Shown piece by piece: positions 1 to 16,040 of a stretch of DNA of 17,400 nt. How positions within the stretch are numbered: the first letter of the stretch is position 1; every line of letters begins with the position of its first letter. The position numbers were made by a program, and so were the translations under genes. The DNA is from Candidatus Sulfotelmatobacter sp. (lineage in GTDB: Bacteria; Acidobacteriota; Terriglobia; Terriglobales; SbA1): the NCBI GenBank assembly GCA_030151135.1, contig JASLEQ010000079.1, positions 1 through 17,400 of the forward strand, written 5' to 3'. The notes below the pieces were generated by a model, which was not told the DNA's origin, did no database searches, and saw only the letters and a program-made list of their open reading frames with translations.

Positions 1-660
1 GGGCAGCGCTTGCGCCAGCAGAATCGAATTCGCTGTTACCTCCGCAACTCGTCCCACGTTGAATGTCACTCGCCGTACATAATTCGGATCCCACTTCACC
101 GCCGCCGCATTGCTCACGTACGCCCCGGCAATTCCCGATCCCACATATCCCGTCTGTTGTTGATAATCCACGTCTACCGCCAGCAATGTTCCCACCGGAA
201 ACGCACTCGTCGTTCCAGGTCCAAACATCAACTCGCTCGCAGTCGATCCCGGCAGTACCGCGATTCCCGCTGCGGGGGTTCCTCCCGAAGGGGACGGCGC
301 ACTTCCGGCCATCGGCGCCAGCACGTTCATATGTTCCGATCCGCACGATAGCGCCATCTGCAACTTTCCCCACTCCACGAAACTGAAATCGACGCGCGCT
401 TCGAGGGGTCCGCGGAATTGGGCCGCCGGTAGCGACCGTGCTCCGGATTGAACAGCATTCGTCGGTGTCGAATACGACCGTTCGAAGTTTTCAATCCATC
501 CCAGGTCGATCCACGGACTCGGCGGCGCACTGAACGGGAATGCCCCACTTCCCGGATCAAAGATCGTCGGCGTCTCCGTCTCGCGGTTAACCGGAGCAAA
601 GTAGGCCCGCATCTGCCGCGTGACCGGAACCATCGCTGCCCGCAATGCAGAAGTGCTCAT
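1..660 (-). CDS. Putative major tail (tail tube) protein, 5' part; runs off the window
   Basis: The minus-strand frame starting at ATG 660 stays open for 220 codons to the window edge, so the C-terminus is missing. The start is convincing: a perfect GGAGGTGA ribosome site lies 7 nt upstream, and the ATG overlaps the stop of the preceding gene (TGATG), a sign of translational coupling. The protein begins MSTSALRAAMVPVTRQ and is rich in Gly, Ser, Thr, Ala and beta-prone stretches (for example WIDLGWIENFE, EARVDFSFVEWGK and TLLAVDVDYQQQTG), with no signal peptide or membrane segment. In the HK97 and gene-transfer-agent order, the gene after adaptor, stopper and tail terminator is the tail tube protein, which polymerises into the tail bore. 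The coding status is well supported. The role rests mainly on position; a tail-sheath or other tail structural protein is the alternative. Confidence 0.8.
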   Translation of the reverse strand, partial: MSTSALRAAMVPVTRQMRAYFAPVNRETETPTIFDPGSGAFPFSAPPSPWIDLGWIENFERSYSTPTNAVQSGARSLPAAQFRGPLEARVDFSFVEWGKLQMALSCGSEHMNVLAPMAGSAPSPSGGTPAAGIAVLPGSTASELMFGPGTTSAFPVGTLLAVDVDYQQQTGYVGSGIAGAYVSNAAAVKWDPNYVRRVTFNVGRVAEVTANSILLAQALP

Positions 661-1226
661 CACAGCGTCACCTCCGAAAAGAAGTAAATGGTCACTCGAG
701 CCTTGCGTTCCACCCGCGCGTCCTGACTCGTCTCCGCTGAATCAGTAACACCACTCCTCACGAGCTCCGGAAATGATGTTCGTCCCCAGTACACTCCAGA
801 ACCTTTTCCTTCACTGAATGAAGGTTGCGTCCAGAAAACGCAAGTCCCCAAATCCACGCTCGGCGATTGCGTATAGTCCCGCTTCTCTGTGTTCGGTGGC
901 TCACAAATCCCGAGCAGCTCTGAATCAAGCTGCGCCAGGAGCCTGCCACGATCCACCATGCTCGCCACCGAACCCGTGCTGTAATACGAGATCACCACGT
1001 CGAGGCTCATCATCGGGGAGTTGCTGGCTTTCGCAAGCAACACTTCCGCTCCGCCCCACTCGATGTAGAACGTGTTCGCCTCTGGCTTTGCCGACGATGG
1101 CGGAAGATTTTCCACCACCACAATCGCCGGCACGGTCGCCCCGTTGATCGTGACCGTCCTCGCCGGATTCAGCGCCGCCAGCCTTTGTTGCAGCGCCAGG
1201 AAAAAACTGTCCTTCGCAAATTGCAT
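660..1226 (-). CDS. Putative tail terminator / tail completion protein
   Basis: This 188-residue protein begins MQFAKDSFFLALQQRLAAL, an amphipathic N-terminal helix followed by alternating beta segments, and ends in a strand (VTIYFFSEVTL). There is no signal peptide. An AGGA element lies about 9 nt before the ATG. The stop overlaps the start of the tail-tube-like gene by one base (TGATG). Its size and its place between a stopper-position gene and the tail tube gene fit the tail terminator family, which caps the tail and joins it to the head. I do not recognise a diagnostic motif, so the role is inferred from gene order. The reading frame stays open for about 56 codons upstream of the ATG but contains no ATG, GTG or TTG, which supports the ATG as the start. 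Confidence 0.72.
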   Translation of the reverse strand: MQFAKDSFFLALQQRLAALNPARTVTINGATVPAIVVVENLPPSSAKPEANTFYIEWGGAEVLLAKASNSPMMSLDVVISYYSTGSVASMVDRGRLLAQLDSELLGICEPPNTEKRDYTQSPSVDLGTCVFWTQPSFSEGKGSGVYWGRTSFPELVRSGVTDSAETSQDARVERKARVTIYFFSEVTL

Positions 1227-1354: not shown

Positions 1355-1762
1355 CTACTCGACTGCAGTCAATACATAAAAGCAGACCGTCCCGTTATAG
1401 CTTTCCGGAACCACGCTCTCGATGTGGAATAACTCGCTCCCATACGTCAGCCCGATGACCGCGTTAAACAAATCGTCGCTAGTCCCCATTCCTAGCGACG
1501 CCAACTGATTGGCAACCGCCGAAGCAGGCAGAGTGAATTCAACTCGCCGCCGCGGGCCGAGGTTCCCCGTGGTCATCTCTCTCAATACCACCGGTGAAAT
1601 CACGACTTCCTGCACTCCCGGATCCACCAATCCCAACTGCCCCGCTGCGTCTCCTGCCATCGCTGTCGCCGGCAACAGCAGGCTGACAGTCTCCCCACCC
1701 AATGCCTTCAACATTGCATCGGCCGCACGCAAGAGCCCCGACCCGCAAATTCCTCCACCCAT
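1355..1762 (-). CDS. Putative head-tail stopper or neck protein, 135 aa
   Basis: The open frame reaches back to 1882, but the best start is ATG 1762 (MGGGICGSGLLRAADAML), preceded by a strong GGAGGGG site. The upstream extension is arginine-rich and overlaps nothing recognisable. The protein has a short N-terminal helix, then Gly/Ala/Val-rich beta segments (ETVSLLLPATAM, VQEVVISPVVLRE, RRRVEFTLPASAV), and ends in a strand (GTVCFYVLTAVE). The gene lies 76 bp downstream of the gp6-like adaptor gene and upstream of the putative tail terminator, exactly where HK97-like phages and gene transfer agents encode the stopper that closes the portal channel. I recognise no family signature, so the function is positional inference. 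Alternatives are a minor neck or head-decoration protein. Confidence 0.7.
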   Translation of the reverse strand: MGGGICGSGLLRAADAMLKALGGETVSLLLPATAMAGDAAGQLGLVDPGVQEVVISPVVLREMTTGNLGPRRRVEFTLPASAVANQLASLGMGTSDDLFNAVIGLTYGSELFHIESVVPESYNGTVCFYVLTAVE

Positions 1763-1838
1763 ATCCCCTCCGACCTTCCAGAAAATTTTGCGACCGACCA
1801 CTCGCGCAGCTGCTCTTCCTGATTCGCGCCTCGATGTT

Positions 1839-2462
1839 CTACGCTCTCCTCGCCACGAACGGCTCGAGCAGACTTCGTACATTTGCGTCCACCAGCGTGT
1901 CGCCGAAATAATCCAGCCGCATTCGATCCAGCGTCCCCGACTTCACATTCAGGGCAGGTGTAGCCTGCGCGTTCTTCACAATCTGTGCGCATGCCACCTT
2001 TACGCTCGAAGGAATGCTCGTCATTCCGGCGTTGTAGACAACGTCCACTTCGTTGAAGAACAATCCCAGAGCGTTCACCGGGAACGTTAGCTCTCCCTTG
2101 TCACTCCAGATATCGATCGTGCTCGGGTCAATCTCCGTCCATGACCCCGGCAGCGCAAATACCAGCGCAAACTCCAGGCTCATTTCCGGGTAAGGCCATT
2201 CCCCTCGCCGTGGAATTCCATACCGGCCCTGCAGACTCACGATCGGTGAAGTCGCTGGCGCGACCGTAACCAGCGGCAGGTAACTAAGCCTCACCGTGTT
2301 GAGCTCCGGAGGCAGTTTCAACCGCTCTTCATACTGGTTCACCGCCAGCGTCGCCCTTCGGCAATGCGCATCGATAATCGCCGATGCCGCTGTTACCCAC
2401 GATGGATCAGTCGTCGCGTCAAGCCCGTACGTCAGATAGTCCGTAGTATCTAAATAGTTCAT
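1839..2462 (-). CDS. Head-tail connector (gp6-like adaptor) protein
   Basis: A 207-residue protein starting MNYLDTTDYLTYGLD. The N-terminal third is mostly helical, with the pattern typical of phage gp6-like DNA-packaging/adaptor proteins: a helix ending in a paired-basic region (IIDAHCRRAT) and a QYEERL segment. A beta-rich middle (LSYLPLVTVAP, IDIWSDKGELTF) and a C-terminal helix with a basic tail (FVARRA) follow. Adaptor rings of this family dock under the portal after DNA packaging. The position immediately downstream of the major capsid gene matches the HK97 order. The ribosome site is weak (AGAG about 10 nt from the ATG). The 146-bp gap before it holds a long hairpin repeat. Confidence 0.8.
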   Translation of the reverse strand: MNYLDTTDYLTYGLDATTDPSWVTAASAIIDAHCRRATLAVNQYEERLKLPPELNTVRLSYLPLVTVAPATSPIVSLQGRYGIPRRGEWPYPEMSLEFALVFALPGSWTEIDPSTIDIWSDKGELTFPVNALGLFFNEVDVVYNAGMTSIPSSVKVACAQIVKNAQATPALNVKSGTLDRMRLDYFGDTLVDANVRSLLEPFVARRA

Positions 2463-2608: not shown

Positions 2609-3571
2609 CTATCTTTGGACTTTGATTTCGTAATGCGCGAAGTTCGCGCCCTTGACCACGGGAGCTCCAAACTTCACCACGACTTGTTGCTGCGCCAACG
2701 AATTCGGAAGACCGAGCTTGAACACCCGGGGGTTCGGGTCCGTCAGCCAGTGATACTCGATCAGATCCTCGGTCACGATGTAGCACGGGTACACACTCGG
2801 CGAACCCGTGGTGTATCCCAGCGCCCACTCCGGAATCAGCGGCAGATCGCCCGCCTGGGTTGATAAGGCCTTCACTCGAATCCCACCAGTGATCTCGACC
2901 GAATTGAGAACAACGTTGAACTCCGCCTTCATCTCTCGGTCAATCAAGTCCAGCAGCACGGGATTTGCGTAGATCGCCGTCGGCCTGACTTGGTACGACG
3001 AATTCGCGACCATCGATGCCACCGTCCCCTTGATTCCATCGACGATGCTCGCGCTTGTGCCGATTGTCGTTGTGTTTCCACCCGCCTCGATCTGCCCGAT
3101 CACGCCAAAGTATTGCGCCGTGGTCGGAGCGCTTAACGAGGTGTCGTTGCCATTCCAAAGAGCAACGTCATGCGTCCGCATCAGCCCGTCGACAGCATCG
3201 GCCAGGTCCTTCGCCTGCAAATACGCAAACTGGCTCTGCTGTGCCGTCACTTCCAGATCGAACAGGTTGTAATTGATCTGCGAAACCAGCGCTTTCAGCG
3301 GAACCGACAGCTCAACTCGCGTCGGTGCCTGCGACGTCGGCGCGATGTTGCGCGGATCGACAAAGGCCTGTGCCGCGCTTGGCGATGCAATCGCAGTCTC
3401 CTCGAAAAACCGCGATGGATGCCCAGTCGCGGGCATCTGCTTGATCCTTTGCCCAAACACACCGCGCCGTCGCACGATGTCAAAGATCTCTGTCTGGTAA
3501 CGGTCAACTTCTACTGCTGCGGGACCCAGATAGTCCGCCGCGGCCATCAAATCCACAAATTTTCCCTGCAT
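2609..3571 (-). CDS. Major capsid protein, HK97-like
   Basis: A 320-residue protein beginning MQGKFVDLMAAADYLGP. An AAGGAG site 5 nt before the ATG gives a confident start. Features typical of HK97-fold capsid proteins are visible: a long N-terminal segment, a helical region around residues 110-140 (QQSQFAYLQAKDLADAVDG), a spine-helix-like region (IVDGIKGTVASMVANS) followed by a beta segment with YANPVLLDLIDREM, and C-terminal strands with LGLPNSLAQQQVV. It lacks a long N-terminal coiled coil (delta domain), in keeping with a separate scaffold-like gene just upstream. The gene is in the expected place after portal and protease. A terminator lies between it and the scaffold-like gene, so the capsid gene may be transcribed from a promoter in the 3572-3696 gap. 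Confidence 0.85.
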   Translation of the reverse strand: MQGKFVDLMAAADYLGPAAVEVDRYQTEIFDIVRRRGVFGQRIKQMPATGHPSRFFEETAIASPSAAQAFVDPRNIAPTSQAPTRVELSVPLKALVSQINYNLFDLEVTAQQSQFAYLQAKDLADAVDGLMRTHDVALWNGNDTSLSAPTTAQYFGVIGQIEAGGNTTTIGTSASIVDGIKGTVASMVANSSYQVRPTAIYANPVLLDLIDREMKAEFNVVLNSVEITGGIRVKALSTQAGDLPLIPEWALGYTTGSPSVYPCYIVTEDLIEYHWLTDPNPRVFKLGLPNSLAQQQVVVKFGAPVVKGANFAHYEIKVQR

Positions 3572-3680: not shown

Positions 3681-3692
3681 CCTCTTCCATCC

Positions 3693-3785: not shown

Positions 3786-4214
3786 CTACTCGATCATTCC
3801 CGCTCGTGCTAACTCCGCTTTCACCGCGATCCGCTGCTCCACGCTTAAGCTCTGCAGGGTCTTGTCGAGAACACCTTTATCCATCTTCTCGCCCGACGTC
3901 TCCATGCCGCTCTTCGCCAGGATGGTCGAGACCATTGCGGGCAGCGTCTTCCGCGCCATTCGTGCCGCCTGCGCTTTCAATTCGTTGTTTGACTTCTCGA
4001 GTTCCGCTACGCGCTCCTGCAACTGCCGCGTCGCATCGCCCGATGAAGCTTCGATTTCCTGATGTTCGTCCACCGACGCCACAATCCGGTCGACTTTCGT
4101 ATTCAGTGCTTCCTGTTGTGCATCCAGTCGCCCGAGCACGCGATCCAACGATTCGGCCGCCGTAGCCAGCCGTTCCGCAGTCGCCATCAACTGCTGCATC
4201 ATCTCTTCATTCAT
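3786..4214 (-). CDS. Coiled-coil protein, putative capsid scaffold
   Basis: A 142-residue, highly charged, almost entirely helical protein beginning MNEEMMQQLMATAERLA. The frame is open back to 4292, but the upstream part is derived from a dispersed repeat and the internal ATG 4214 has a GGAG site. Residues about 8-100 form a continuous heptad-like coiled coil (LDRVLGRLDAQQEALNTKVD, LQERVAELEKSNNELK). A short C-terminal helical bundle (LSVEQRIAVKAELARAGMIE) follows. Small coiled-coil proteins encoded between the protease and the capsid are commonly scaffolds that guide procapsid assembly, and the adjacent capsid protein seems to lack its own delta domain. The role is inferred from structure and position only; a head accessory protein is possible. 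Confidence 0.7.
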   Translation of the reverse strand: MNEEMMQQLMATAERLATAAESLDRVLGRLDAQQEALNTKVDRIVASVDEHQEIEASSGDATRQLQERVAELEKSNNELKAQAARMARKTLPAMVSTILAKSGMETSGEKMDKGVLDKTLQSLSVEQRIAVKAELARAGMIE

Positions 4215-4266
4215 CCTGTTGTTCTCCTTTCGGAAATCTCCATCCGACTTCAGATCAGTCCTCGAA

Positions 4267-4294
4267 CTTGTCATCCTGAGTGGAGTAAGCAATC
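4267..4294 (+). repeat. Partial copy of the TTGTCATCCTGAG dispersed repeat
   Basis: ACTTGTCATCCTGAGTGGAG matches the 5' core of the repeats at 6770 and 5218 and then diverges, without the internal hairpin. It sits in the 177-bp gap upstream of the coiled-coil gene. The same gap holds a short tandem duplication, ACTCGGGACTCGCA then ACTCGGGACACG, at about 4355-4380. Confidence 0.5.
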
Positions 4295-4391: not shown

Positions 4392-5147
4392 CTAACTCAA
4401 CTCAATCCACGTCTCCTGGTACGCGGCCTTGTTCTTTCTCAAGATCGCCGCCCCGGTAAACGTCACGTCGATTAACCGCAGGATCCTGGCATTCGGGTTC
4501 AAGACATTCACGTTCGTCACTTCAAACGACATCCCGAGGCGCTCGCCAGACTTCGAATGGGACGACTGCAAACCCAACGCCGCCTCGGACCTCAACGTAG
4601 TTGGGCCTGCCTGTCTCATCGCCGGTCCGGCGATCATCGCCCGAATTTCACGAACGGCTGCCGAAAGAGAATTACGCAGCCGTGCTCCCTCGCTTCGCAC
4701 CGAACTTGAATGTTCGAGATCCCAGGCCCGGGCGCTGCCGTCGGAAGCCGTGGCTCGACAGCGGCAAGCCGAAAGCCTCGCACCAGAAACTGGCTTTCGT
4801 CCGCCCCGCGCGATCTCCGACACAATTTCCGGAAAATCCTTCCCATATAGAAACCCGCCCACTTCTAGATTTCGGCCTACGAGTTCTGCGCGTGTTATCA
4901 CTCCCACCTTCCGCTTTTGATCGTGCTGATCCAGTGATGGCGCGTAATCCACCGCCATCCCGATCAGAGACGGAATCGCTCTCTCCGCCGCCTTGCGCGT
5001 CAGCACCACTCTCTTTCCTCGCGATCCCGAAGGTGCCCGGTCCGACGTTACATCGACCACCGTCAATACTCCCCGGAACGCCACCCGGTTCGGATGCCCC
5101 TCCACCTCCGGCATCTCCACCGCCATGCTCTCCAATTCCATCGCCAT
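4392..5147 (-). CDS. Prohead serine protease-like (S78/HK97 type), with an internal insertion
   Basis: ATG 5147 (MAMELESMAVEMPEVEGHP) is chosen because a GGGGAG site lies 8 nt upstream; the longer frame to 5174 begins inside a dispersed repeat. Numbered from 5147, the protein has 251 residues. The first 115 or so match my expectation for HK97-type prohead proteases, with a candidate catalytic His75 in the DQHDQKRKVGVITRAEL segment. The C-terminal part carries the candidate nucleophile Ser207 in GMSFEV, then DVTFTGAAILRKNKAAY. Between them, residues about 115-199 form an Arg/Ser/Ala-rich low-hydrophobicity block that looks foreign to the fold. In the family this enzyme cleaves scaffold and capsid during head maturation. 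Catalytic residues are retained, but activity is uncertain because the insert separates them. Neighbours are the portal gene upstream and the scaffold-like gene downstream. Confidence 0.75.
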   Translation of the reverse strand: MAMELESMAVEMPEVEGHPNRVAFRGVLTVVDVTSDRAPSGSRGKRVVLTRKAAERAIPSLIGMAVDYAPSLDQHDQKRKVGVITRAELVGRNLEVGGFLYGKDFPEIVSEIARGGRKPVSGARLSACRCRATASDGSARAWDLEHSSSVRSEGARLRNSLSAAVREIRAMIAGPAMRQAGPTTLRSEAALGLQSSHSKSGERLGMSFEVTNVNVLNPNARILRLIDVTFTGAAILRKNKAAYQETWIELS

Positions 5148-5167
5148 CACGTCGTCTCCCCGCAAAA

Positions 5168-5206
5168 TTGTCATCCCGAGGCGGATGCCTCTCCGTCGCA
5201 GGACCT
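5168..5206 (+). repeat. Diverged copy of the TTGTCAT dispersed repeat
   Basis: ATTGTCATCCCGAGGCGGA, then CCTCTCCGTCGCAGGACC, resembles the core and tail of the dispersed family but has a different internal hairpin (GAGGCGGA...TCTCCGTC). It immediately precedes the full copy at 5218, so two copies stand in tandem upstream of the protease gene. Confidence 0.5.
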
Positions 5207-5217
5207 AATGCACTCCG

Positions 5218-5283
5218 CTTTGTCATCTTGAGCGAAACAGGCGAGCCCAAAGCTCGCCTGCGTAGTCGAAGGATCCCTACCTT
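5218..5283 (+). repeat. Full copy of the TTGTCATCCTGAG dispersed repeat
   Basis: TTTGTCATCTTGAGCGAAAC is followed by an internal hairpin GGCGAGC-CCAAA-GCTCGCC and the tail CGTAGTCGAAGGATCCCTAC. It is nearly identical to the copy at 6770. It occupies the 194-bp gap between the portal and protease genes. Confidence 0.8.
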
Positions 5284-5341
5284 CATTCCCAAACTCTCAG
5301 CGAGCGAGATTTTGGTTTTCTGTCTGCGTCGAGACCGGCCG

Positions 5342-6646
5342 CTACCCAATCTCCGGCAGCCCCCTCATCCTCCGCACCTCGTTCACGGTCAGAACTCCGT
5401 TCTGCAACAGGATCTGCTGAATCTGCGCTTCCTCCAGCGGATCAGTCGCATCGACATCGGCAAACACAAACTCCAGGTCATCCCACCCGAGTTTCTTCGA
5501 GAGGGCTCCCCGCGTCAGCGACTCGGCCAGCAACCGCGCGGTCGGCACAATCGCTTGCCGGAACGCCAGGTCATTCATCTCCTCCGCGGTGGAGCGGTTC
5601 ACGTCACGCTCCACCCCCAGGTACAGCGGAGGAAGATCAAACGCGGAAGCGACGACTCGCAGCAGGAACTCCTGCCACTGCAGTCGCAAGTCTGCATCGG
5701 TGCCTCCACCGAACCTCAGCACCTCCGGTTTGCTCTCAACCGACAAAATAGGGACCTTTCCTGTTCCTTCAATCTCGTCCTGCCACCACCGGATCAGCCG
5801 CTCATGATGCTCCGGCGTCAGGTCCTGCAACCAAAGCGCATACTGCACCACAGAGTTCGAAGCCAGCCGCCCCGCATACCGATGCGCTCCCAGGAACGCA
5901 TTAATCGTCTCGAATGCAACTTCGAGCCGCCCCAACCCAAATGGCGTATGCGTCCGCGGATTCAACCGGATGTAAATCAACTCGTCATCATCAAGCTCGA
6001 TTTTCGTGTTCGACGAATCGAGCACCTGTTGATACCGCTGCGATTGAGGCGATCCGTCCCACTCCAGGTTCATCCGGATCGAAGCCCCATCCACCGCCCA
6101 CATCGCCAATGGAAGATCCTTGACATAGGGATGCCCCAGGTCTCGCCGCCTTTGCGAGACCTGGGAATTCGGAATTGTGGTGACAGCCGAGCCCAGTTCG
6201 GCAACCTGCTCCCATCCCGGATTCACCTGCACCTCAATTGCCCCATACCCGCCGACAATAATGTCCTCCAGCACCTGCTCCGCCAACGACCGAAACGAAT
6301 CATCCGGATTCGGCGATTCAAAATTCGCGGTCAGAATTCGCACGCGCTCGGCGCCGTATGGCAGCGACTCAAGAGCCAGCCCCTGCCGTGGCTGCACCCT
6401 CCATCGCATGCCGGCAATACGGTCCTTGATGCAGTTGATCGCCCGCCGCGCAATCGGAGTCTCCGAAAATCTCCGCAGGTTATACGGAGTAGGTTTCGGC
6501 ATCGCCTCCGTCAGCGGCCCGTATGAATTGAAGATCGAAGGCAGGCCCGACGTCCGCCGCCTCTTCTCAATTGCCGTCGACGCACTGTCCGCCGACACTC
6601 CCGCCACCCGGCGCCAAGCGCCGCGTACCGCCTCTGTAATTTTCAT
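5342..6646 (-). CDS. Phage portal protein, HK97 family
   Basis: A 434-residue protein beginning MKITEAVRGAWRRVAG. It matches the HK97-type portal family: an N-terminal region with PIARRAINCIKDRIAGMRWR (residues 64-83), a core with VLEDIIVGGYGAIEV (125-139), the conserved FGLGRLEVAFETINAFLGA stretch (about 236-254), the wing/crown region LLRVVASAFDLPP (338-350), and a C-terminal ATDPLEEAQIQQILL...EVRRMRGLPE tail. Portals form the dodecameric DNA entry channel of the head and dock the terminase. Residues about 145-177 look like an insertion, and 161-171 are encoded by a perfect 12-bp-arm palindrome. The ribosome site is weak (AGAG). The gene lies downstream of the accessory cassette rather than directly next to the terminase. 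Confidence 0.9.
   Translation of the reverse strand: MKITEAVRGAWRRVAGVSADSASTAIEKRRRTSGLPSIFNSYGPLTEAMPKPTPYNLRRFSETPIARRAINCIKDRIAGMRWRVQPRQGLALESLPYGAERVRILTANFESPNPDDSFRSLAEQVLEDIIVGGYGAIEVQVNPGWEQVAELGSAVTTIPNSQVSQRRRDLGHPYVKDLPLAMWAVDGASIRMNLEWDGSPQSQRYQQVLDSSNTKIELDDDELIYIRLNPRTHTPFGLGRLEVAFETINAFLGAHRYAGRLASNSVVQYALWLQDLTPEHHERLIRWWQDEIEGTGKVPILSVESKPEVLRFGGGTDADLRLQWQEFLLRVVASAFDLPPLYLGVERDVNRSTAEEMNDLAFRQAIVPTARLLAESLTRGALSKKLGWDDLEFVFADVDATDPLEEAQIQQILLQNGVLTVNEVRRMRGLPEIG
6126..6172. repeat. Hairpin repeat, TGCCCCA family, inside the portal gene
   Basis: Perfect 12-bp arms CCCAGGTCTCGC (6135-6146) and GCGAGACCTGGG (6154-6165) enclose a 7-nt loop. The flanks GGGATGC and AATTCGG match those of the intergenic copies at 2483, 6857 and 10781. 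Here the element is read in frame as portal residues 161-171, SQVSQRRRDLG. Confidence 0.75.
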
Positions 6647-6699
6647 GATTGTTTTTCTCTACCTAAATTCGGTGTAACTCAGAATCAATATCAATATGT

Positions 6700-6741
6700 G
6701 GGAACAGCCGCCCCGGCTGTCCGGTCGAGCAAAGCTCGACA
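6700..6741. repeat. Double hairpin repeat, ACAGCCG / GTCGAGC type
   Basis: Two perfect 7-bp stems stand side by side: ACAGCCG-CCC-CGGCTGT (6704-6720) and GTCGAGC-AAA-GCTCGAC (6724-6740). There is no U-tract. It looks like a third class of dispersed palindrome, present once in this window. Confidence 0.7.
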
Positions 6742-6769
6742 CCTACACGACAGCTCTTAACATCACCAA

Positions 6770-6833
6770 ACTTGTCATCCTGAGCGAAGCAGGCGAGCCA
6801 AAGCTCGCCTGCGTAGTCGAAGGATCCCTACCC
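6770..6833 (+). repeat. Best copy of the TTGTCATCCTGAG dispersed repeat
   Basis: TTGTCATCCTGAGCGAA leads into a perfect 10-bp hairpin GCAGGCGAGC-CAAA-GCTCGCCTGC (6789-6812) and the tail GTAGTCGAAGGATCCCTACC. I use it as the reference for the other copies. It lies in the gap upstream of the portal gene. Confidence 0.85.
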
Positions 6834-6856
6834 TGTTCCCAAAACCAACATCACAT

Positions 6857-6901
6857 GGGTGCCCCATTTCTGGCCGATGTTGCCAGAAGTGGGGATTTGG
6901 A
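6857..6901. repeat. Hairpin repeat, TGCCCCA family, copy 3
   Basis: Arms CCCCATTTCTGGC (6862-6874) and GCCAGAAGTGGGG (6882-6894) pair over 13 bp with one wobble and a 7-nt loop. The flanks are GGGTG on the left and ATTTGG on the right, as in the other copies of this family. Confidence 0.8.
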
Positions 6902-6933
6902 CTTCCGTTCCTCTAGTCGTCCACTAACCAAAC

Positions 6934-6958
6934 AAAAAGCCCCGCACCCTCCGAGGCT
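6934..6958 (-). terminator. Intrinsic terminator of the HipA/DUF3037/membrane cassette
   Basis: On the minus strand, AGCCTCG-GAGGGTG-CGGGGCT forms a 7-bp stem with one G-U pair and runs directly into TTTTTG. It begins 43 nt after the stop of the membrane protein gene, so it closes the three-gene cassette before the portal gene. Confidence 0.8.
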
Positions 6959-7000
6959 GATCACGCGAACATACAATCGACACTCTAACGGTTGCTGTCC

Positions 7001-7381
7001 TCATCGGATGAACGCTGTGGTCCAAGTCACCACTAACCATGTTCCGCCAATGAGTAAAAGCCATCGTCCGCTGCCTCGTCCACCGATACCGCACAATAGC
7101 GCCAATATTGATAGCGGCCAATTGTATCTTCCCCATCGCGAGGCGATTATCGATTCCTTCCAATAGACCAGATGAGCCTGCCTCAGGTACAAGACCACTC
7201 CAAGCTCGCAAACAACGGAAATCGACGCGGCTCCAAGTCCCACGCCGATCAGGTAACGCCGTCCTCTGCTTGGAAGATCCGCCCTGGCGCTCCGCAACCA
7301 AAGGATCCAACCACAAATAATGACCAACAATGGAGCAAGAGAGATCAATAAGTCGACAGATGCATTCAACCAGCGGCTCAC
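7001..7381 (-). CDS. Small four-helix integral membrane protein of unknown function
   Basis: A 126-residue protein with four predicted membrane helices at about residues 10-29, 43-66, 87-101 and 106-123. A short basic loop (RSARADLPSRGRR) lies between helices 1 and 2, and a longer Trp/Tyr-rich loop (RQAHLVYWKESIIASRWGRY) between 2 and 3. The start is GTG 7381, which overlaps the stop of the DUF3037 gene (GTGA), with GGGAGG just upstream; this suggests coupled translation. No enzymatic motif is visible and I do not recognise the family. A terminator lies 43 nt downstream. Because it is joined to a kinase-like gene and a DUF3037 gene, it may be a membrane effector or anchor for that pair, or a superinfection-exclusion protein; this is inference. 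It could equally be a host membrane protein carried along by chance. Confidence 0.7.
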   Translation of the reverse strand: MSRWLNASVDLLISLAPLLVIICGWILWLRSARADLPSRGRRYLIGVGLGAASISVVCELGVVLYLRQAHLVYWKESIIASRWGRYNWPLSILALLCGIGGRGSGRWLLLIGGTWLVVTWTTAFIR

Positions 7382-8190
7382 CCTCCCAACTCCCTCCGCG
7401 CCGTCTCCGCAATTCCCGCCATCTCGCTCGTCTCCGCCACCCGGATCCGGCTCTCCTCCATCATCTCCAGCGCAAACGCAATTTCATTCCTCCCGCGATC
7501 CAAGCCGTCCTCAACCACAGCAGTCAGTAAAGGCCTCGTCGAAGTCACTTCCGCCATCACCGGAGCAATCTTCGGATATCTCGCCGCCAGCATCACCGCC
7601 GAATCCACGCTCGTCCGCATCGACACCGCGTGAAACAACTTCATCTCACTTCCAACTCGATATCCAAAATCAAACTCAAACGGATCCCCCGGCTTCGTAT
7701 AAGGCTCTGCGGGGACTGCATTCAGCAGCCTTAGAATTCCCGCATCCTTAAAAGCCGTTTGCATCGTCTCTAAAATCCTCTGACGCCCTGCAGGCTCTCT
7801 CGTCCGTCGAAGCTGCGACGTCTCCAAGAACATGCGGGCTACCTCATCGACTTCAGCCATTGCAACCTTCTCAGTCAATGCAGGCATGATCCCGGAAAGC
7901 TGAACAACACCCGAAAACGTATCCTCCATCTTCCGCAGCAACATCGATTTGTCGCGGGTCTGTCCAACCTCTTGCTGGATCTCATTCTGCAATGCCTGGA
8001 GCACTTCCAAATCAACCTGCGGATCCAGGCACTGCACCCGCCCCCAATTCTTCGTAAACCGGACATCCGCTAACAACGCGCCCTCATTGCCTTCCTCGAG
8101 CGCGATCAGTCCGATGTTCACAAACTCCCCCTTCACTGCGTCTGGCACATACCGCAGCACGAAGAACTCGAGTTTCCGTTTCTCAGGCAT
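7378..8190 (-). CDS. DUF3037-family protein, partner of the HipA-like kinase
   Basis: A 270-residue soluble protein starting MPEKRKLEFFVLRYVPDAV. The opening FFVLRYVPD and GEFVNIGLIALE (residues 9-32) are the hallmark of the DUF3037 family, which has no established biochemical function that I know of. The rest is largely helical and acidic/basic mixed, with no membrane segment or catalytic motif I can name. The gene starts 59 bp after the stop of the HipA-like gene, and its stop overlaps the GTG of the membrane protein gene, so the three read as one operon. From memory, DUF3037 genes are often found beside HipA-like kinase genes; I could not verify this here. By analogy with kinase toxin modules it could be a neutraliser, substrate or adaptor of the kinase, but this is inference. 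Confidence 0.8.
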   Translation of the reverse strand: MPEKRKLEFFVLRYVPDAVKGEFVNIGLIALEEGNEGALLADVRFTKNWGRVQCLDPQVDLEVLQALQNEIQQEVGQTRDKSMLLRKMEDTFSGVVQLSGIMPALTEKVAMAEVDEVARMFLETSQLRRTREPAGRQRILETMQTAFKDAGILRLLNAVPAEPYTKPGDPFEFDFGYRVGSEMKLFHAVSMRTSVDSAVMLAARYPKIAPVMAEVTSTRPLLTAVVEDGLDRGRNEIAFALEMMEESRIRVAETSEMAGIAETARRELGG

Positions 8191-8249
8191 TAATCTTCAA
8201 TAGAACGTCAGACTTCCTTACCGCCTCTGGCAATCAGCATTTTCCGAAC

Positions 8250-9050
8250 TCAATTCTCTCGCCACTTCGGAAACGGTCGCCTTGCCGAAACTCGAAAAAC
8301 CTCGATCAGCCCGCGAACCAGTTCGCGACGCTCAATCAACTTCGACACCAACGCCTCAAGTTCATCCCACTCCCCGTCGTACCACTCCGGCGGGATCCCT
8401 CCAGCGACTTCCCAAATGACCTGCTCATCCATCTTTTCTACGAGCGAAAGCCAAGGCTCAAACGATTCCCATCCCAGAACTTCTTCATACACTTCATTTC
8501 GCGCATAAACGCCGCGCAGCGGATAGTCCGGAAACGTCCACTCCCCAGCGTTGAAGCAATATCCCTGGTCAATAAACGATGCCGTGTACAGCTTTTCTCG
8601 GCCCTTCCTCCAGAACGCCGCCTGCCTTCCGTTTGCATTTCCAGTCCACTTATCCACCACCAGCATTCCGGAAAATTCCGGGATGTTCCTTACCCGGTTC
8701 AGCATTTCCATCGGCAGGTAATCAAATACCTGCCCTTCCAGCGGGTCCACCACGTATCGCGCCCCGAATTGTAGTCCCGCCTGGCATGGAATCGTACTGT
8801 GCGCCAACTGGATGTTTAACTCCGGCGTGTTCTTGACGAGCCATTCGTCGACTTCCACCACTTCCGTCATCGGCACATGCAATCCGACCTTTTCTGCCAG
8901 CCGCGTCGCCAGCATCTCATTCGCCAGCACCCGCAGATGCTGCGGATTATTTCGGAACTTCACGACATAAAAATGCCCATCCGCGCAGCGCATCAAATGT
9001 CCCTGCGCCCCGCCTCGCATCCTCCGCACGTGTTGGACTGCCTCGATCAA
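8250..9050 (-). CDS. HipA-like kinase domain protein
   Basis: A 266-residue protein from TTG 9050 (MIEAVQHVRRMRGGAQGH). This start is kept because the N-terminal strand and glycine loop belong to the fold; an internal ATG at 9020 has GGAGG directly against it and would cut into the loop. The key elements of a HipA-type kinase are present: Lys31 in YVVKFRNN, Glu45 in ANEMLA, a catalytic loop DKWTGNANGR with Asp133 and Asn138, and a metal-binding DQG with Asp161. It looks catalytically intact. It is shorter than classical HipA (about 440 residues) and lacks the N-terminal subdomain; it fits the shorter HipA-like family. HipA kinases phosphorylate proteins such as glutamyl-tRNA synthetase and cause growth arrest; the target here is unknown. 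No HipB-like DNA-binding partner is present; the neighbour is a DUF3037 gene. Confidence 0.82.
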   Translation of the reverse strand: MIEAVQHVRRMRGGAQGHLMRCADGHFYVVKFRNNPQHLRVLANEMLATRLAEKVGLHVPMTEVVEVDEWLVKNTPELNIQLAHSTIPCQAGLQFGARYVVDPLEGQVFDYLPMEMLNRVRNIPEFSGMLVVDKWTGNANGRQAAFWRKGREKLYTASFIDQGYCFNAGEWTFPDYPLRGVYARNEVYEEVLGWESFEPWLSLVEKMDEQVIWEVAGGIPPEWYDGEWDELEALVSKLIERRELVRGLIEVFRVSARRPFPKWREN

Positions 9051-9061
9051 TGATCTTGTGT

Positions 9062-9084
9062 GGCGCGGGCGCCTCGCCCGCGAA
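9062..9084. repeat. Strong GC hairpin in the leader of the HipA-like gene
   Basis: Perfect 8-bp arms CGCGGGCG (9064-9071) and CGCCCGCG (9075-9082) with a 3-nt loop lie 14 nt upstream of the TTG start. There is no U-tract, so it is not a good terminator for the terminase gene. In an mRNA it would sit next to the weak ribosome site of the kinase gene and could limit its translation. It also looks like a common GC-rich dispersed palindrome. Confidence 0.6.
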
Positions 9085-9229
9085 CGCTATCCATCTTGAG
9101 ATTTCCCAGGGTCGCTCGAGATCCTCCAAAGGGAAGACGCTCTACTCGTCCAGGTCGGAAAACTCGCCAATCCTACCGGAACTTCTATCCCTTGTCTGTG
9201 ACGGATGAACATTCCCGAACCACCGCTTC

Positions 9230-10759
9230 CTACCCCATCTCCACCGCGGCTACTTCCAACCGGCTCCGCGTCCCTCGCCCGCATTCGACCTTCCGAACCG
9301 CCAGCGCGATCGCCATCGCCATTACGCAATCATCATGTGATCCCTCGGCCGCCGCCGAATTCCCGTCCGTATGTCGCACAAAGGTTTTCATCTCCCGTAA
9401 CAGTAGCTCGCTCTGAAAAAGAGTCGGCTCTTCGTCCAACATCGCCCCAAGATTTTCAATCATCATCGGACGCGTCGCCACCGACGTCAGCCAACCATCC
9501 TGCCCGCCCTGAGTAAACAGATTGTGATATCCCATGTCCTTCAAATGCGCAAGCACACCGTATCCATGATTGTTCCGCTCCACCGCAATCAGTGCATTTC
9601 GATACCGCTGCCCCAACCTCACCAGGCGTCGTGCCAACTCCAGCGGAGGGAAATGTCCATGTAGCTCCGCGCATTGCAGTGCCGATGCCCGTTCAACCAC
9701 CTGCGCACACGCGTAATCCCCATCCGTCCCGCCGCCGGCTGCGTCCACCCCAATGATGTATTGCTTCTTGTCTTGTGGAGGCAGCCACACCAGGTATCGC
9801 TCGTTATCGTGGGACTCCGTCGGCTTCGTCGCTGCCTTTCCCGCTTTCTCGATCGCATCCAGCTCGAACACGCACTCTCCGGAAGCAAGAAAGCACGACT
9901 CCGTGTTCTCCGCGTATTCCTGCGCCGCCTGTTTCTTCATAATGCGCAGCCGCGTTCGCCGCCACGAGATCTGTCCCTCCGTCAATCCATACTTCGAACT
10001 CAGCTCTTGCTCTTCCTCGGTCAGCGGCCCCAGCACCCTCTTCGACACATCCTCCTTATAGGAGCTCTCATACCACCACGGAAAAAAATGTGTCCGGTAC
10101 CCCTGCTCTTCTGCTTTCTGCCATTCGTCGTAAAACAATCCCACCGCTCCGCGCGGCGTCGACTCCAGCACAATCTCCCCATCCGGCACCACCGCCGCCC
10201 GCAGGGACGCCAATGTATCTTCAGCCCCGCGGGGCCAGCGGGAGACCTCCGAACAATGCAAATTGTGGATGGTCATCCCGCGTCCCGCGTTGTCGTCCGC
10301 CGTCTCTACCCGGTACTCGCTATCCAGCCGCGGAAACACAATTTGGCGGACGTTGGAGCGCGACTTCACCAGCGCTCCTCTCTGCACTCGCGAATTGGGC
10401 AAGTTCTCCCAAAACCGGTGCACGATGTTGAAAATCGCTTCGGCCGATTCATCGTTATGCGCCACCTGCACCGTCACTGTCCCAGGTTGCGTAATCGTCT
10501 GAATAAAAAATCGAGCCGCAATGTACGTCGTAATCCCGACCTGCCGCGCCTTCAATACAATGTTTCGCTTCGTCGCACAGCGTGAGTATTCCTGTTGCGC
10601 TCGGTTCAGCTTGAAATATCGAAGCCCACCCTTCTTCACCCGGATCTTTAAGAGCTGCCGTATCAACAAATCTCGGATGGATCCTTCGAACCCCTGTGCC
10701 GGACGATCCAGGTAAGCCCCGAATTGTTGCACTAACTCCAAATCAGTCCACTGCTTCAT
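9230..10759 (-). CDS. Phage terminase large subunit
   Basis: A 509-residue protein starting at ATG 10759 (MKQWTDLELVQQFGAYL); a GGAG site lies just upstream. The ATPase domain carries a Walker A-like KARQVGITT (residues 70-78), a Walker B-like NLHCSE ending in Glu171 (an Asp usually precedes the Glu; here it is Ser), and the coupling motif ESTPRG (199-204). The nuclease domain carries an RNase H-like GVDAAGGGTDGDYA (Asp339 and neighbouring Asps), AVERNNHG (Glu394) and SHDDCVMA (Asp476/477). The enzyme pumps DNA into the prohead and cuts concatemers. The usual small terminase gene is not recognisable upstream. Downstream, the accessory cassette separates it from the portal gene, which normally follows directly. 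Confidence 0.93.
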   Translation of the reverse strand: MKQWTDLELVQQFGAYLDRPAQGFEGSIRDLLIRQLLKIRVKKGGLRYFKLNRAQQEYSRCATKRNIVLKARQVGITTYIAARFFIQTITQPGTVTVQVAHNDESAEAIFNIVHRFWENLPNSRVQRGALVKSRSNVRQIVFPRLDSEYRVETADDNAGRGMTIHNLHCSEVSRWPRGAEDTLASLRAAVVPDGEIVLESTPRGAVGLFYDEWQKAEEQGYRTHFFPWWYESSYKEDVSKRVLGPLTEEEQELSSKYGLTEGQISWRRTRLRIMKKQAAQEYAENTESCFLASGECVFELDAIEKAGKAATKPTESHDNERYLVWLPPQDKKQYIIGVDAAGGGTDGDYACAQVVERASALQCAELHGHFPPLELARRLVRLGQRYRNALIAVERNNHGYGVLAHLKDMGYHNLFTQGGQDGWLTSVATRPMMIENLGAMLDEEPTLFQSELLLREMKTFVRHTDGNSAAAEGSHDDCVMAMAIALAVRKVECGRGTRSRLEVAAVEMG

Positions 10760-10780
10760 TCCATCTCCAATTCGAAGCAA

Positions 10781-10832: not shown

Positions 10833-10891
10833 CTTCCCCTTCCCCATGCGAGCCAGCCGAAACTTCATATCCCAGAGCGGTCGAAAGGCGC

Positions 10892-11774: not shown

Positions 11775-14700
11775 TCATTGCAGCAACATCGGCATCGTCG
11801 TGATAGTCAAATTCCCGCTCAGAGTTCCCGTCCCGCCCATCAAATCTCGATACCCTGAGTACGCCCCTGGCACGGTATAGCTTTTCCCCCCGCTAACCGA
11901 GTCGGTCCAGACCCAAAGCCCCGCGCGTCCATTCGCATCTACAAACGGAGCTGTCCACGTTGCCGGATTGTTCCCATCACTCACAGCCGCCGCCGTGAAG
12001 TACCCGCCGACTAGCATCCCTTCAAGATTCTGATAAACCGTCGCATACGATACCGGCGTCGTCGGTCCGTTCCCGATCGTCGCGTTCCAGTAGTACCACC
12101 ACAATCCCGCCGCCCCATTCGACTCGTGCACAATCTGCCACCGCGCTAGTTGCCCCGCGCAATCTGACTCCGCAAACGGTCCGCTCGTGACATTCACCGT
12201 GAGCCCGCTCGCCGCCGGTGTAGTCGAATCCGTCGTCGCCACGCCGCTCGCGCTCGTATACCCGCTTCCGATCGCCTCGATTTGTACATACGTCACGGTC
12301 GTTCCTGAAACCTGTACCACCGCTCCAATCCCGCCACTCCCCCCAGCTTGGTTGATCGTGAAAAAGTCCCCCAGCTTGTATCCGCTTCCTCCAGCGTTCA
12401 CGGCCAACCCTGCCAGACTCCCGCTCGCCGGACACGCGAACGATGACGTGCTGAAGTTCGTTTCCGAATCGATATACGGAGCCACATTCCATCCCGCCGT
12501 CCCGTTCTGTACAGTCCGGAACGAACTGATCTGCCCGCTCCACGCCTGCTCCGGTGTCTTTGCCGAATTCGATGACGTGTAGGTATGCCAGTCCACAATG
12601 TCTGAGATTCGCCCGTTCGCATTCTCGTAATTCATCCAGGTCTGCAGGTCCGATGCATGTCCCGACGTCACACTCGGCATCATCAGTACCGCACCTGGCA
12701 CATTCGCCCGGATGATCGCTGCAGCCGACGCCACCATCTGGTACATCTGTGCCATCGTTCCTGTCCAATGAATCGTCAGCGTCCATTCATTCGACATCTG
12801 GTACACCTTGATCAAATCCTTCACGCAGTTTGCGCCGTGACAGTACTGCACCAACTTCGTCACGAACGCGTTGAACGTCGTACTTCCCGTCGCTCCCAAG
12901 TCTTCCGGCGGATCCGTGCACGCGCTCGGGCCATACACCCCAACATTTCCGCACGTGGCAGTGTTGATCACGTCCCAGATCGGTGTCGTGGTAAATTGCT
13001 CAACGCCAATCTGTCCGGGATGCGCTGCCAGCATGTCCAGATAGTTGTCCAGGTAAGTCGAGACCCAATCCGACGCGCTCGTCGGCTGCAGCGCCGCCCA
13101 GAAGGTCTTCGCGTCGTGCAGGCGAAGTACCCTCGGCATCGCCGCACTCGCCGGCCATACTAGATACGGTGGCGGATTTGTATTCCCGCAGTTCGTGACG
13201 CCCAGCCCGCACTGCGCTCCAAAGTGTGAGGCCTGCACTGTCTGCGCGGGCACATTCACCGCATAAGACACAACCGCACTATCCACGCTCCCATTTGTCC
13301 CCGAAACCATTTTTAGCGGAGCCGAAGTCGCAAGCGCCACATAGCCCGGATTCGGTGTCCCACTCAGGGTAGGCTGTAACGCCATCCCGCTCGAGCAAGT
13401 CGCGCCATCTCCCTTCGTCGCCGGAGTCGAACCATCCACCGTGAAACAAACCACTGTCGGCCCGCTGCTCGGGTTTATGACCGTCGCCTCCACGCCTCCA
13501 AGCAATCCTGTTGCGAACGTAGCGGACGGCCCGCTACCCGACATCGATCCGACGAATGTGCTGCCCGATCCTCCGCCCTTCCCATACCGTTGCGAGACGT
13601 ACTCCGCCGCTCCAACATCCCACGTCCCCAGCCCTGCTCGATCCGTGCCGTTCATGTCCACTGAATAGGAACTCGCGGTTCCGCGACCCACCGTCGGCGA
13701 GTTCGCTGCCACCACAGCAAAGCTCGCCGACGCGCCCGTCGCATTCAGCACGTATCTCGTCGTCCCGCCAATTCCTATGCCCGCACTGATTGCGCTCGCC
13801 AGGCCCGTATTCGTCATCCAGGCCCCGCCATTCGCCGTCACCGCATCCAGCAGGTATCCCAACTCCGTGTTGCTGATGTCTGGCGTTCCATCACTGCGTG
13901 AGTTGTAGTGCGTAAAAAATCCGTACGGAACGCCCCACGCCGCGGCCCGAAAGACCAGGCTCGCCACCATCTGATTGATCTGGTCCTGGCTCATCCCATG
14001 AATCGTGATCGCCGCCAGGCTGGTAATGTTCTGCACATTCACGCCATTCGAGTACAGCGAGTTCGCCGAGCCCGCCGTATTGTCCTGCCCCTTCATCGCT
14101 AGGCTGCCGCGCGCCGCCGTATAACCTGCGGCCACTGCGTATGCCTCCGTCGACGGATCTTCAATCCCGTCCGGATACACATAGAAGTTCTCGGTCAGCC
14201 CCGTGACGTTTTCCTGAAGTGCGCTCTTCGATGACGCCATCTCGTCAGGCAGCAACTCCGTCTGGTCGTAAAGCAGCGCATACGGAGCAGACTTGATGTC
14301 CTGGCTCGTTATCGCCAGCAGGTTTGTGACGTGGGTATTCGGACGGCTCAGCGGCCAGTTATTCGTTGTCCACAACGGCGAATTCTGCTGTACGGAGTAG
14401 TGCGGAATACCTTGCAGATACTGGTACAGCGTCAGCGCGTTATACGAGGCCAAGGGAATTGACAGGTTGTCCCCCGTCGCTCCCGTCACTGAAGTCGTGA
14501 GCTGGCCGCCAGCGATCGTAAGCGTCGCCGCCGTTCCGCCGCCCGTATATTGAATGACCATCGCCGGCGCGTTCGGATAAGGCGGCGAACACGGCGCGAT
14601 CCCGCACGGATTCGTATTCGTCGTGTAGTACTGATGCGACCACGAATGAGAATCGATCTCGTTTCCGCCCGCATACCAGCTGTTCACATCGCTCCACACG

Positions 14701-15971
14701 ACCGGATACGATGGCACCACCGCCGCGTTGAAATGAATCCCGCGCGTCGAAAACATGCTCACAAATGAATCGATGTATGTCTCTGTCCCTGGTGCCGATC
14801 CGACGTCGTCCACCGTAAATGAAAACCGGGCGGGATATGTCTTGAAATTCGCCAGGATCGGCGCAATCGATGATGAGATGTTTCCGCTGCCCGCAACCGC
14901 CCCGACCACATCCGACGTCGGAAACTGCGCTACGTTATTTCCATAAAAGTGCGAATACGAATAAGTGACGTGCCCCGAGTTGTCCTTCAACCCCGCATCC
15001 CGGTTCGCATATCCACGGCAGTTAGTCATCGTGACTGCCGCCGCCCCATCCACGTGGAACCCGTCATAGTCCAGGTGCGCATCATCATTCACCAGCTGGA
15101 TCGAACTCGCGTTCGGTGCATTCACATAGAACCCGTGAGGCGTCGTGCCATACGGCACCATCCCATCCGATTCCATGTTGGCGAACACCAGATTGTCCGA
15201 TGTCCCTGAAACACTCACGCCCATGTAATCGAACATTTGGATCTTGATGTGCTGAAACACCAGCCAACTCTTGTTCACCACAGAAATCACTGCCAGCCCT
15301 GAGGCCTGGCCAACCACAGCCGTGATCGCGCCGTAATACGAAGAGGGTAGAGTCCCATTGGGCGAGTAGACGTAGAGGGTCGGATACACCAGGCAGAAGT
15401 CGCCAGGCCCGGTGATCACTCCTGCCGTCGTACATGCCGGATTCGGTGTCCGCTTCCGTCCCCAGAAATTTCCCAGCTGCAAACTGTTAATCTGCGGCGT
15501 TGCAATGGAAGTCGATAGCGGCGTCGTATAGATGCTTCCCGAATTGTGTGTCCATGTGGCACTCGAAAGATTGATGACCGGACTCAATACAGGAGCCGCT
15601 CCCGATCCATACGCGTCGAATGCAATCGGGCTGCCCGGTGCTCCGGATGTCGGCGGAATCAGTTGCTCGTTCCACACATCGCCGCGTTTCAGGAACACAG
15701 TGTCCCCTGCAGCCAACGCCAGTCCATTCACCTTCGCCATAGTCTGGAACGGTTGCGCCTGTGTCCCAGGATTCGCATCATTCCCACCGCTCGCACTGAC
15801 GTAATACGAAGTACTCCACAGAGGAGCACTTGACAGTAAAACAAGTCCCAGAACGCCCCTCAAAACTGTCACCCTGAGCGAAGCAGGACGGCGAGCAAAG
15901 CGAGCCATTCTGCGAAGTCGAAGGATCTCGTGTATCTTGCAATCTCTACCGGCCCCGTTAGGAATTCTCAC
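11775..15971 (-). CDS. Giant secreted beta-helix / polysaccharide deacetylase / glycoside hydrolase-like protein
   Basis: A protein of 1398 residues from GTG 15971, chosen for a perfect GGAGGA 7 nt upstream. Other starts are ATG 15908, GTG 15872 and TTG 15863, which give a shorter n-region. Numbered from 15971: a hydrophobic signal core at 36-53 (VLRGVLGLVLLSSAPLWS); a right-handed beta-helix beginning SYYVSASGGNDANPGT (55-70); a NodB-type deacetylase domain at about 382-724 with FTVDD (Asp388/389) and HSWSH (His442, His446); a closing GTWDVGAAEY (782-791); a chitobiase-like domain (FTVDGSTP); and a clan-A TIM-barrel hydrolase at about 914-1398 with SNEW (acid/base Glu1062), DWHTY and DSETN (nucleophile Glu1170). 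A Gly-rich double repeat interrupts the barrel at 1185-1264. It probably binds and trims surface or extracellular polysaccharide, as a phage depolymerase or a secreted host enzyme; the substrate is unknown. Confidence 0.85.
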   Translation of the reverse strand: MRIPNGAGRDCKIHEILRLRRMARFARRPASLRVTVLRGVLGLVLLSSAPLWSTSYYVSASGGNDANPGTQAQPFQTMAKVNGLALAAGDTVFLKRGDVWNEQLIPPTSGAPGSPIAFDAYGSGAAPVLSPVINLSSATWTHNSGSIYTTPLSTSIATPQINSLQLGNFWGRKRTPNPACTTAGVITGPGDFCLVYPTLYVYSPNGTLPSSYYGAITAVVGQASGLAVISVVNKSWLVFQHIKIQMFDYMGVSVSGTSDNLVFANMESDGMVPYGTTPHGFYVNAPNASSIQLVNDDAHLDYDGFHVDGAAAVTMTNCRGYANRDAGLKDNSGHVTYSYSHFYGNNVAQFPTSDVVGAVAGSGNISSSIAPILANFKTYPARFSFTVDDVGSAPGTETYIDSFVSMFSTRGIHFNAAVVPSYPVVWSDVNSWYAGGNEIDSHSWSHQYYTTNTNPCGIAPCSPPYPNAPAMVIQYTGGGTAATLTIAGGQLTTSVTGATGDNLSIPLASYNALTLYQYLQGIPHYSVQQNSPLWTTNNWPLSRPNTHVTNLLAITSQDIKSAPYALLYDQTELLPDEMASSKSALQENVTGLTENFYVYPDGIEDPSTEAYAVAAGYTAARGSLAMKGQDNTAGSANSLYSNGVNVQNITSLAAITIHGMSQDQINQMVASLVFRAAAWGVPYGFFTHYNSRSDGTPDISNTELGYLLDAVTANGGAWMTNTGLASAISAGIGIGGTTRYVLNATGASASFAVVAANSPTVGRGTASSYSVDMNGTDRAGLGTWDVGAAEYVSQRYGKGGGSGSTFVGSMSGSGPSATFATGLLGGVEATVINPSSGPTVVCFTVDGSTPATKGDGATCSSGMALQPTLSGTPNPGYVALATSAPLKMVSGTNGSVDSAVVSYAVNVPAQTVQASHFGAQCGLGVTNCGNTNPPPYLVWPASAAMPRVLRLHDAKTFWAALQPTSASDWVSTYLDNYLDMLAAHPGQIGVEQFTTTPIWDVINTATCGNVGVYGPSACTDPPEDLGATGSTTFNAFVTKLVQYCHGANCVKDLIKVYQMSNEWTLTIHWTGTMAQMYQMVASAAAIIRANVPGAVLMMPSVTSGHASDLQTWMNYENANGRISDIVDWHTYTSSNSAKTPEQAWSGQISSFRTVQNGTAGWNVAPYIDSETNFSTSSFACPASGSLAGLAVNAGGSGYKLGDFFTINQAGGSGGIGAVVQVSGTTVTYVQIEAIGSGYTSASGVATTDSTTPAASGLTVNVTSGPFAESDCAGQLARWQIVHESNGAAGLWWYYWNATIGNGPTTPVSYATVYQNLEGMLVGGYFTAAAVSDGNNPATWTAPFVDANGRAGLWVWTDSVSGGKSYTVPGAYSGYRDLMGGTGTLSGNLTITTMPMLLQ
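15865..15930 (+). repeat. TTGTCATCCTGAG-family repeat overlapping the N-terminus of the giant protein
   Basis: ACTGTCACCCTGAGCGAAGC, an internal GGCGAGC-AAAG-CGAGCC-type segment and the tail GAAGTCGAAGGATC match the reference copy at 6770 over its length. Read on the minus strand it encodes EILRLRRMARFARRPASL, just ahead of the signal-peptide core. Confidence 0.75.
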
Positions 15972-16009
15972 GAACACGTCCTCCGTTGAAGCGCAATTCT
16001 CGATAACCG

Positions 16010-16040
16010 CGCAAAGCAAAACCCCGATCGAAATCGGGGT
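16010..16040 (-). terminator. Intrinsic terminator after the tail-fibre-like gene
   Basis: A perfect 8-bp stem ACCCCGAT/ATCGGGGT (16021-16028 and 16033-16040) with a 4-nt TTCG loop on the minus strand is followed by TTTTGCTTTG. It lies 136 nt after the stop of the tail-fibre-like gene and 39 nt before the ribosome site of the giant secreted protein gene, so the two are probably separate transcripts. Confidence 0.82.

Follow-up and report, generated by a model that had tools for sequence, protein, structure and literature searches.

A HipAD-type kinase/DUF3037 pair in a phage-derived head-tail cluster, probably an inherited element resembling gene transfer agents, in Acidobacteriota

The window analyzed here, a 17,400-nt stretch of a Candidatus Sulfotelmatobacter sp. 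genome (NCBI GenBank assembly GCA_030151135.1, contig JASLEQ010000079.1, positions 1 to 17,400), carries genes for a HipA-like kinase and a DUF3037 protein between the terminase large subunit (TerL) and portal genes of a phage-derived head-tail cluster, below called the element. The features around the pair are as follows.

8250..9050, minus strand: HipA_2-type Ser/Thr kinase (HipA of a HipAD-like pair), 266 aa, TTG start (PF20613, PDC-M66A, catalytic residues, hhalign)
7378..8190, minus strand: DUF3037 protein (HipD-like partner), 270 aa (PF11236, PDC-M66B, hhalign)
7381..7794, minus strand: C-terminal domain of the DUF3037 protein, residues 133-270, with a PD-(D/E)XK-nuclease-like fold (predicted model)
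7001..7381, minus strand: open reading frame 3 (ORF3), small hydrophobic protein, 126 aa, accessory, apparently outside the conserved unit (no family match)
9230..10780, minus strand: TerL, upstream of the kinase (phrog_2, E 2.8e-28; Terminase_6C, E 5.1e-5)
5342..6646, minus strand: portal protein, downstream of ORF3 (PF04860, E 3.7e-45)
9065..9081, no strand: GC palindrome upstream of the kinase (sequence)
6938..6958, minus strand: terminator-like hairpin and T run, 43 nt past the ORF3 stop (sequence)

An earlier note on this DNA described the kinase, DUF3037, and ORF3 genes as a self-contained cassette, and its coordinates agree with ours: three genes in one direction, 59 bp between the first two, a GTGA overlap between DUF3037 and ORF3, a GC hairpin in front, and a hairpin 43 nt past the last stop. 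As for the intrinsic terminator that it proposed, the hairpin and T run are present, but this class of site is not clearly in excess (4 sites found versus a mean of 2.7, sd 1.6, in shuffled sequences). The gap between ORF3 and the portal gene also holds a repeat, GTCATCCTGAGCGAAG, at about 6774-6790 of the window; present in 18 of 193 loci, it is an interspersed repeat of these genomes.

According to family searches, the kinase matches Pfam HipA_2 (PF20613; E 2.4e-10, 40.5 bits at a cut-off of 27) and PADLOC PDC-M66A (E 5.8e-8, residues 4-124), and aligns with HipA of Escherichia phage PhiR5_1 at an hhalign probability of 98% over 204 columns; its identity to two phage relatives is 26-28%. The residues Lys31, Asp133, Asn138, and Asp161, singled out by the earlier note, are invariant in all 113 aligned kinases, and the enzyme is apparently active. 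The DUF3037 protein matches PF11236 (E 2.3e-15), PDC-M66B (E 1.1e-10, residues 6-83), and, over 113 N-terminal columns, HipD of PhiR5_1 (hhalign probability 95%). Its second domain has neither a Pfam match nor a sequence match to DUF1829 of DS-6B. In the predicted structure this domain adopts a nuclease-like fold whose catalytic signature is often degenerate in relatives, and the viral fold match ranked third is named DUF1828 domain-containing. No HipB-like gene lies beside the kinase, as had been noted before: its neighbors are TerL and the DUF3037 gene. The pair thus shares a HipA-superfamily kinase with the HipBA toxin-antitoxin system, in which the HipA kinase acts on translation, but differs from it in the partner.

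The closest known systems are HipAD, DS-6, and the candidate defense system PDC-M66 of PADLOC, found in E. coli prophages and beside Retron-Sda1. They have the same two families in the same order and strand, and the kinase residues as well as the homologous N-terminal domain of DUF3037 are retained in the window. In contrast, the window sequences are distant with partial PADLOC coverage, DS-6B is reported with a DUF1829 second domain, and the known pairs are accessory prophage genes or retron neighbors, whereas the window pair appears fixed in a vertically inherited head-tail cluster. Loss of the kinase abolishes defense by Retron-Sda1 while deletion of DUF3037 is toxic (PMC12548924), and mutation of a predicted catalytic residue costs DS-6/HipAD its defense, with AlphaFold3 predicting that kinase and partner bind each other (PMC13092281). 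Because homologous pairs behave in this way, the window pair is most likely a kinase restrained by its DUF3037 partner. Of the growth-arrest or anti-phage module suggested earlier, control of the kinase by DUF3037 is therefore probable, while the self-contained cassette does not stand.

The conserved unit is a two-gene HipAD-type switch, which excludes ORF3. This small hydrophobic protein has no match in four family libraries and no relative in the viral contig collection; among 5.8 billion proteins searched, one relative was found (P0241, 47%, on a 1,231-bp contig). Judging from these searches it is a local extra and no member of the conserved unit, which lends no support to the suggestion that the membrane protein is an effector or sensor. 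Nor does the third gene recur after HipA-like/DUF3037 pairs: the homologous pairs lack it, the outcome named in advance by the earlier note as counting against its cassette.

Besides TerL and portal, the element comprises the following genes.

4392..5174, minus strand: head-region gene, probable protease, a position-based guess (order kept in relatives; no family match)
3786..4292, minus strand: coiled-coil protein, probable scaffold, a position-based guess (coiled-coil-type matches below cut-off; order kept)
2609..3571, minus strand: putative major capsid protein, 320 aa (conservation and weak phrog_264 matches in relatives)
1839..2462, minus strand: head-tail adaptor (phrog_442, E 5.7e-11)
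1355..1882, minus strand: small gene of the connector/tail end (order kept in relatives)
660..1226, minus strand: gene of the connector/tail end (order kept in relatives; no PHROG match)
1..663, minus strand: tail-region gene g1, truncated by the window edge (order kept in relatives)
11775..16019, minus strand: large spike/fiber-like protein (polysaccharide deacetylase PF01522, E 1.5e-6; beta-helix PF13229, E 0.0025, below its cut-off)

The putative capsid protein has a mean column identity of 82% across 20 rows, and 3 of 20 members weakly match the major head protein phrog_264 (best E 0.0053).

The order TerL-kinase-DUF3037-portal, continued by the same head genes, is seen in 15 of the 16 contigs retrieved from IMG/VR with the kinase as query. 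In species genomes, where the best 80 of 245 kinase loci were taken (78 titled Acidobacteriota), TerL or portal adjoins the kinase in 61 of 79 loci, L041 being left out for having matches identical to those of L009. Since these samples were selected by the kinase, IMG/VR was also searched with the capsid gene (40 loci). Among the 23 capsid-selected loci having both TerL and portal, 20 contain the pair (counted by eye); the kinase query had already retrieved the contigs of 15 of the 23, and the pair occurs in 5 of the other 8. In the remaining loci L203, L204, and L211, TerL stands directly beside portal. The better unbiased sample of the link between pair and element is a capsid count in 150 genomes of one Acidobacteriota family. 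The gene is found in 97 of them, with one match in 96, and a kinase lies within 10.5 kb on the same strand in 84 of the 97, in the standard order in 77 and permuted in 7. In a sample of 151 Terriglobia genomes the capsid gene is present in 31, each time once, and the kinase in 123. Thus, a TerL-portal junction that holds the kinase pair is normal for this element and does not reflect a single insertion event, contrary to the earlier view of a cassette interrupting a phage terminase-portal junction. Two tandem DUF3037 genes follow the kinase at L198 (on the contig of L009), and are probable at L029 and L031, where the merged DUF3037 match is 1.7 kb long. A permuted element of Granulicella type is found on a contig titled Rhodanobacteraceae (Pseudomonadota; L081), most likely a misbinned acidobacterial contig.

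To characterize the chromosomal site, 40 kb were read in each of 20 long-contig genomes picked among the capsid carriers, with genes called by a custom script. The median gaps in the 19 of 20 regions with the pair are 114 nt between TerL and kinase, 52 nt between kinase and DUF3037, and 121 nt between DUF3037 and portal, which suggests co-transcription. The element spans about 13-24 kb and is bordered by host genes, namely MltG, a LolA-like gene, and an oxidoreductase upstream and PurE, PurK, dehydrogenase E2, LipB, Lpd, HemB, and MutS2 downstream. At least one shared flank gene is found in all 20 regions (in G176 by tblastn only); no single one is common to all of them, the counts by gene clusters being 14 for PurK, 12 for E2, and 6 for MltG. 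The variable insertion site or multiple copies expected of an active temperate prophage are thus not seen (20/20 regions; a single match in 96/97 genomes), and no Phage_integrase lies within 20 kb of the element among the matches listed for 14 genomes, out of 239 in all (by eye).

Trees of TerL, portal, capsid, adaptor, g1, c5, kinase, and DUF3037 share 8-12 of 16-17 splits with that of rpoB, a reference gene from elsewhere in the chromosome, while label shuffles reach at most 2-4. For comparison, the host flank genes PurK, Lpd, and E2 have 6/11, 5/8, and 5/9 splits in common with rpoB, respectively. According to the ratio of non-synonymous to synonymous substitution rates (dN/dS), which is 0.018-0.45 for structural genes wherever computable, the element is under purifying selection. 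In the closest genome pair, G146-G101, the element genes except the spike have values of 0.035-0.17 (kinase 0.035, DUF3037 0.041, capsid 0.040, TerL 0.093) versus 0.029-0.045 for host neighbors. On these sequence grounds the element has the appearance of a chromosomal locus of Acidobacteriota that is fixed, single-copy, and vertically kept. As for the spike, for which dN/dS is not computable in G146-G101, the proteins are 31% identical in this pair versus 80-96% for other element genes, as if receptor specificity were diversifying or being swapped. Upstream of the block, an ECF-sigma-like gene family is found in 13 of the 20 regions (PF08281, E 5.4e-7, in the one member scanned) and a Cro/C1-type helix-turn-helix family in 5, with examples at L136:12008-12328 and L136:13155-13796; both are possible element-specific regulators.

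The cluster is read as gene transfer agent (GTA)-like, and a GTA is a strong candidate, on account of its single copy and single site, the host genes shared on its flanks, gene trees that partly match rpoB, and low dN/dS. GTA clusters related to RcGTA are often mistaken for prophages (Kogay 2019, PMC6821227; Fogg 2024, PMC11841831), and RcGTA and other domesticated head-tail clusters are likewise compact, single-copy, vertically inherited, and under purifying selection. The window element differs in belonging to another phylum, in carrying the kinase pair, and in having the ECF-sigma-like family upstream. Its matches in the phage collection are distant, with portal and TerL under 32% and none for the capsid. 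Among the literature matches listed, none links GTAs with this acidobacterial element, and none was found on HipA in acidobacterial prophages, which is weak evidence of absence in both cases. Taken together, the best explanation, which we hold to be somewhat better than an even bet, is a HipAD-type kinase/DUF3037 switch inside a phage-derived head-tail cluster, probably a GTA-like inherited element beside 2-oxoacid (probably pyruvate) dehydrogenase genes. The cluster has probably ceased to be a free phage; it looks like a domesticated particle that may transfer genes.

Several observations weigh against this explanation. The PADLOC and Pfam matches span just part of each pair protein, and the capsid assignment of 2609..3571 is weak. 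The element gene trees agree with rpoB partially, not fully; the pair G265-G216 has higher dN/dS values (0.04-0.45), two of the four genome pairs compared approach saturation of dS, and the integrase result covers the matches listed for 14 genomes. A nearby kinase is missing from 13 of the 97 capsid-bearing genomes (on another contig in 9, absent in 3, and far away in 1), although contig ends explain this in G191 and G206. In one region, G176, the element lacks the pair, and another pair lies elsewhere in the chromosome; together with L203, L204, and L211 this region implies that the pair is dispensable to the cluster. Finally, some genomes have many kinase copies, with 8 matches in G235, 5 each in G248 and G220 without a capsid gene, and 4 in G255, one of them in the element. 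Such copy numbers, as in G235, imply that the kinase also spreads alone; it is a gene that spreads in another form as well. A short DUF3037 gene on the opposite strand was seen in five loci (L023, L036, L037, L053, and L068).

The pair is also found where the phage block is not. In genomes lacking the capsid gene, 20 kinase loci on long contigs were picked. DUF3037 lies beside the kinase in 11 of them; an SLT/LysM gene is near 15 of the 20, EF-G near 6, and dehydrogenase E1/E2 near 7. Of the 11 pair loci, which are free of phage genes, 7 are at the dehydrogenase locus (L101-L104, L106, L108, and L109). In G137 the order is MltG-LolA-oxidoreductase-kinase-DUF3037-PurE-PurK-E2 with no phage genes between, G122 has the same layout as far as read, and neither genome has a portal match. 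In other Terriglobia, phage-free pairs are thus found at this very locus, which speaks against the idea of phage cargo. The housekeeping distribution that the earlier note would have taken as contrary evidence is partly there: the spread of the pair is housekeeping-like, yet it is still linked to the phage-derived block. The deep carrier G118 has EF-G, SLT, a regulator, TerL, kinase, DUF3037, portal through tail, and dehydrogenase E2, an order that combines both settings; the kinase of G118 groups with a different lineage. G104 resembles it, but with TerL inverted and about 8 kb off. Judging from these layouts, the pair is probably a module of the host and survives the phage block. Most simply, pair and phage cluster would have met at one host locus, in whichever order, and the pair would have been retained on its own account.

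These loci, and the kinase being so much more frequent than the capsid gene in Terriglobia, also suit the strongest alternative, according to which the pair is a long-standing module of the host that serves the cell in a role of its own, placed between TerL and portal by accident and with no functional link to them. We regard it as unlikely, though a serious contender, since almost all carriers keep the pair close to TerL and portal, including the 7 of 84 with permuted order, and the short gaps suggest co-transcription.

That the locus is an ordinary temperate prophage with a HipAD-type defense or superinfection-exclusion cassette between terminase and portal is improbable. In its favor, PhiR5_1 carries its HipA/HipD pair beside cI, and Eichorst et al. 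2018 (PMC5900883) count the element among predicted prophages as cluster 153, which includes the stretch of Terracidiphilus gabretensis LAIJ01000009 (700-740 kb) that holds locus L076. Viral contigs of 5.7 to 214 kb also carry diverged capsid genes of 38-64% identity (L214-L220 and L222-L228); eight of them show a portal without a nearby TerL, several carry portal and adaptor relatives, and they are possibly free phages related to the element. However, no kinase or DUF3037 gene is present in the stretches fetched from them. The single copy and site, the common host flanks across divergent species, the rpoB agreement, and the span of about 13-24 kb argue against a prophage too; vertical inheritance, the fixed site, and the kinase pair are not mentioned in the passages of PMC5900883 considered.

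Least probable is that kinase and DUF3037 serve morphogenesis or packaging, with TerL, portal, or scaffold as possible phosphorylation targets: the TerL-portal position recurs in G118 despite its different kinase lineage, and the kinase has a capsid-like dN/dS in G146-G101, but there are elements without the pair and pairs without any phage genes.

Returning to the HipAD-type switch in a GTA-like element, its action may be pictured as follows. The DUF3037 protein would bind and restrain the kinase; the trigger for release would be loss of this protein, or foreign or packaged DNA recognized by its nuclease-like domain. The freed kinase would then arrest the cell by phosphorylating a target, which, as for HipA, may belong to translation, so that the outcome may be protection from phages or an arrest tied to the state of the element. 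A bolder version, to which we give rather low odds, is a hitherto unrecognized GTA lineage of Acidobacteriota with the switch wired into packaging: the nuclease-like domain of DUF3037 would read the state of DNA while it is packaged or while phages attack, and free the kinase, thereby coupling particle production to arrest of the producer or excluding competing phages.

The pair itself is of a known kind; what is new is the combination of a HipAD-type switch with an inherited phage-derived locus. If this is true, one of the most common phyla in soil carries a domesticated single-locus phage cluster filed as a prophage, which calls for a re-examination of how soil acidobacteria exchange genes and how their viruses are counted. 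An anti-phage-type, toxin-like kinase pair would then have a stable home in the cluster and outlive it, and the control of GTA-producing cells would become addressable in genera that can be cultured, Granulicella and Terracidiphilus among them.

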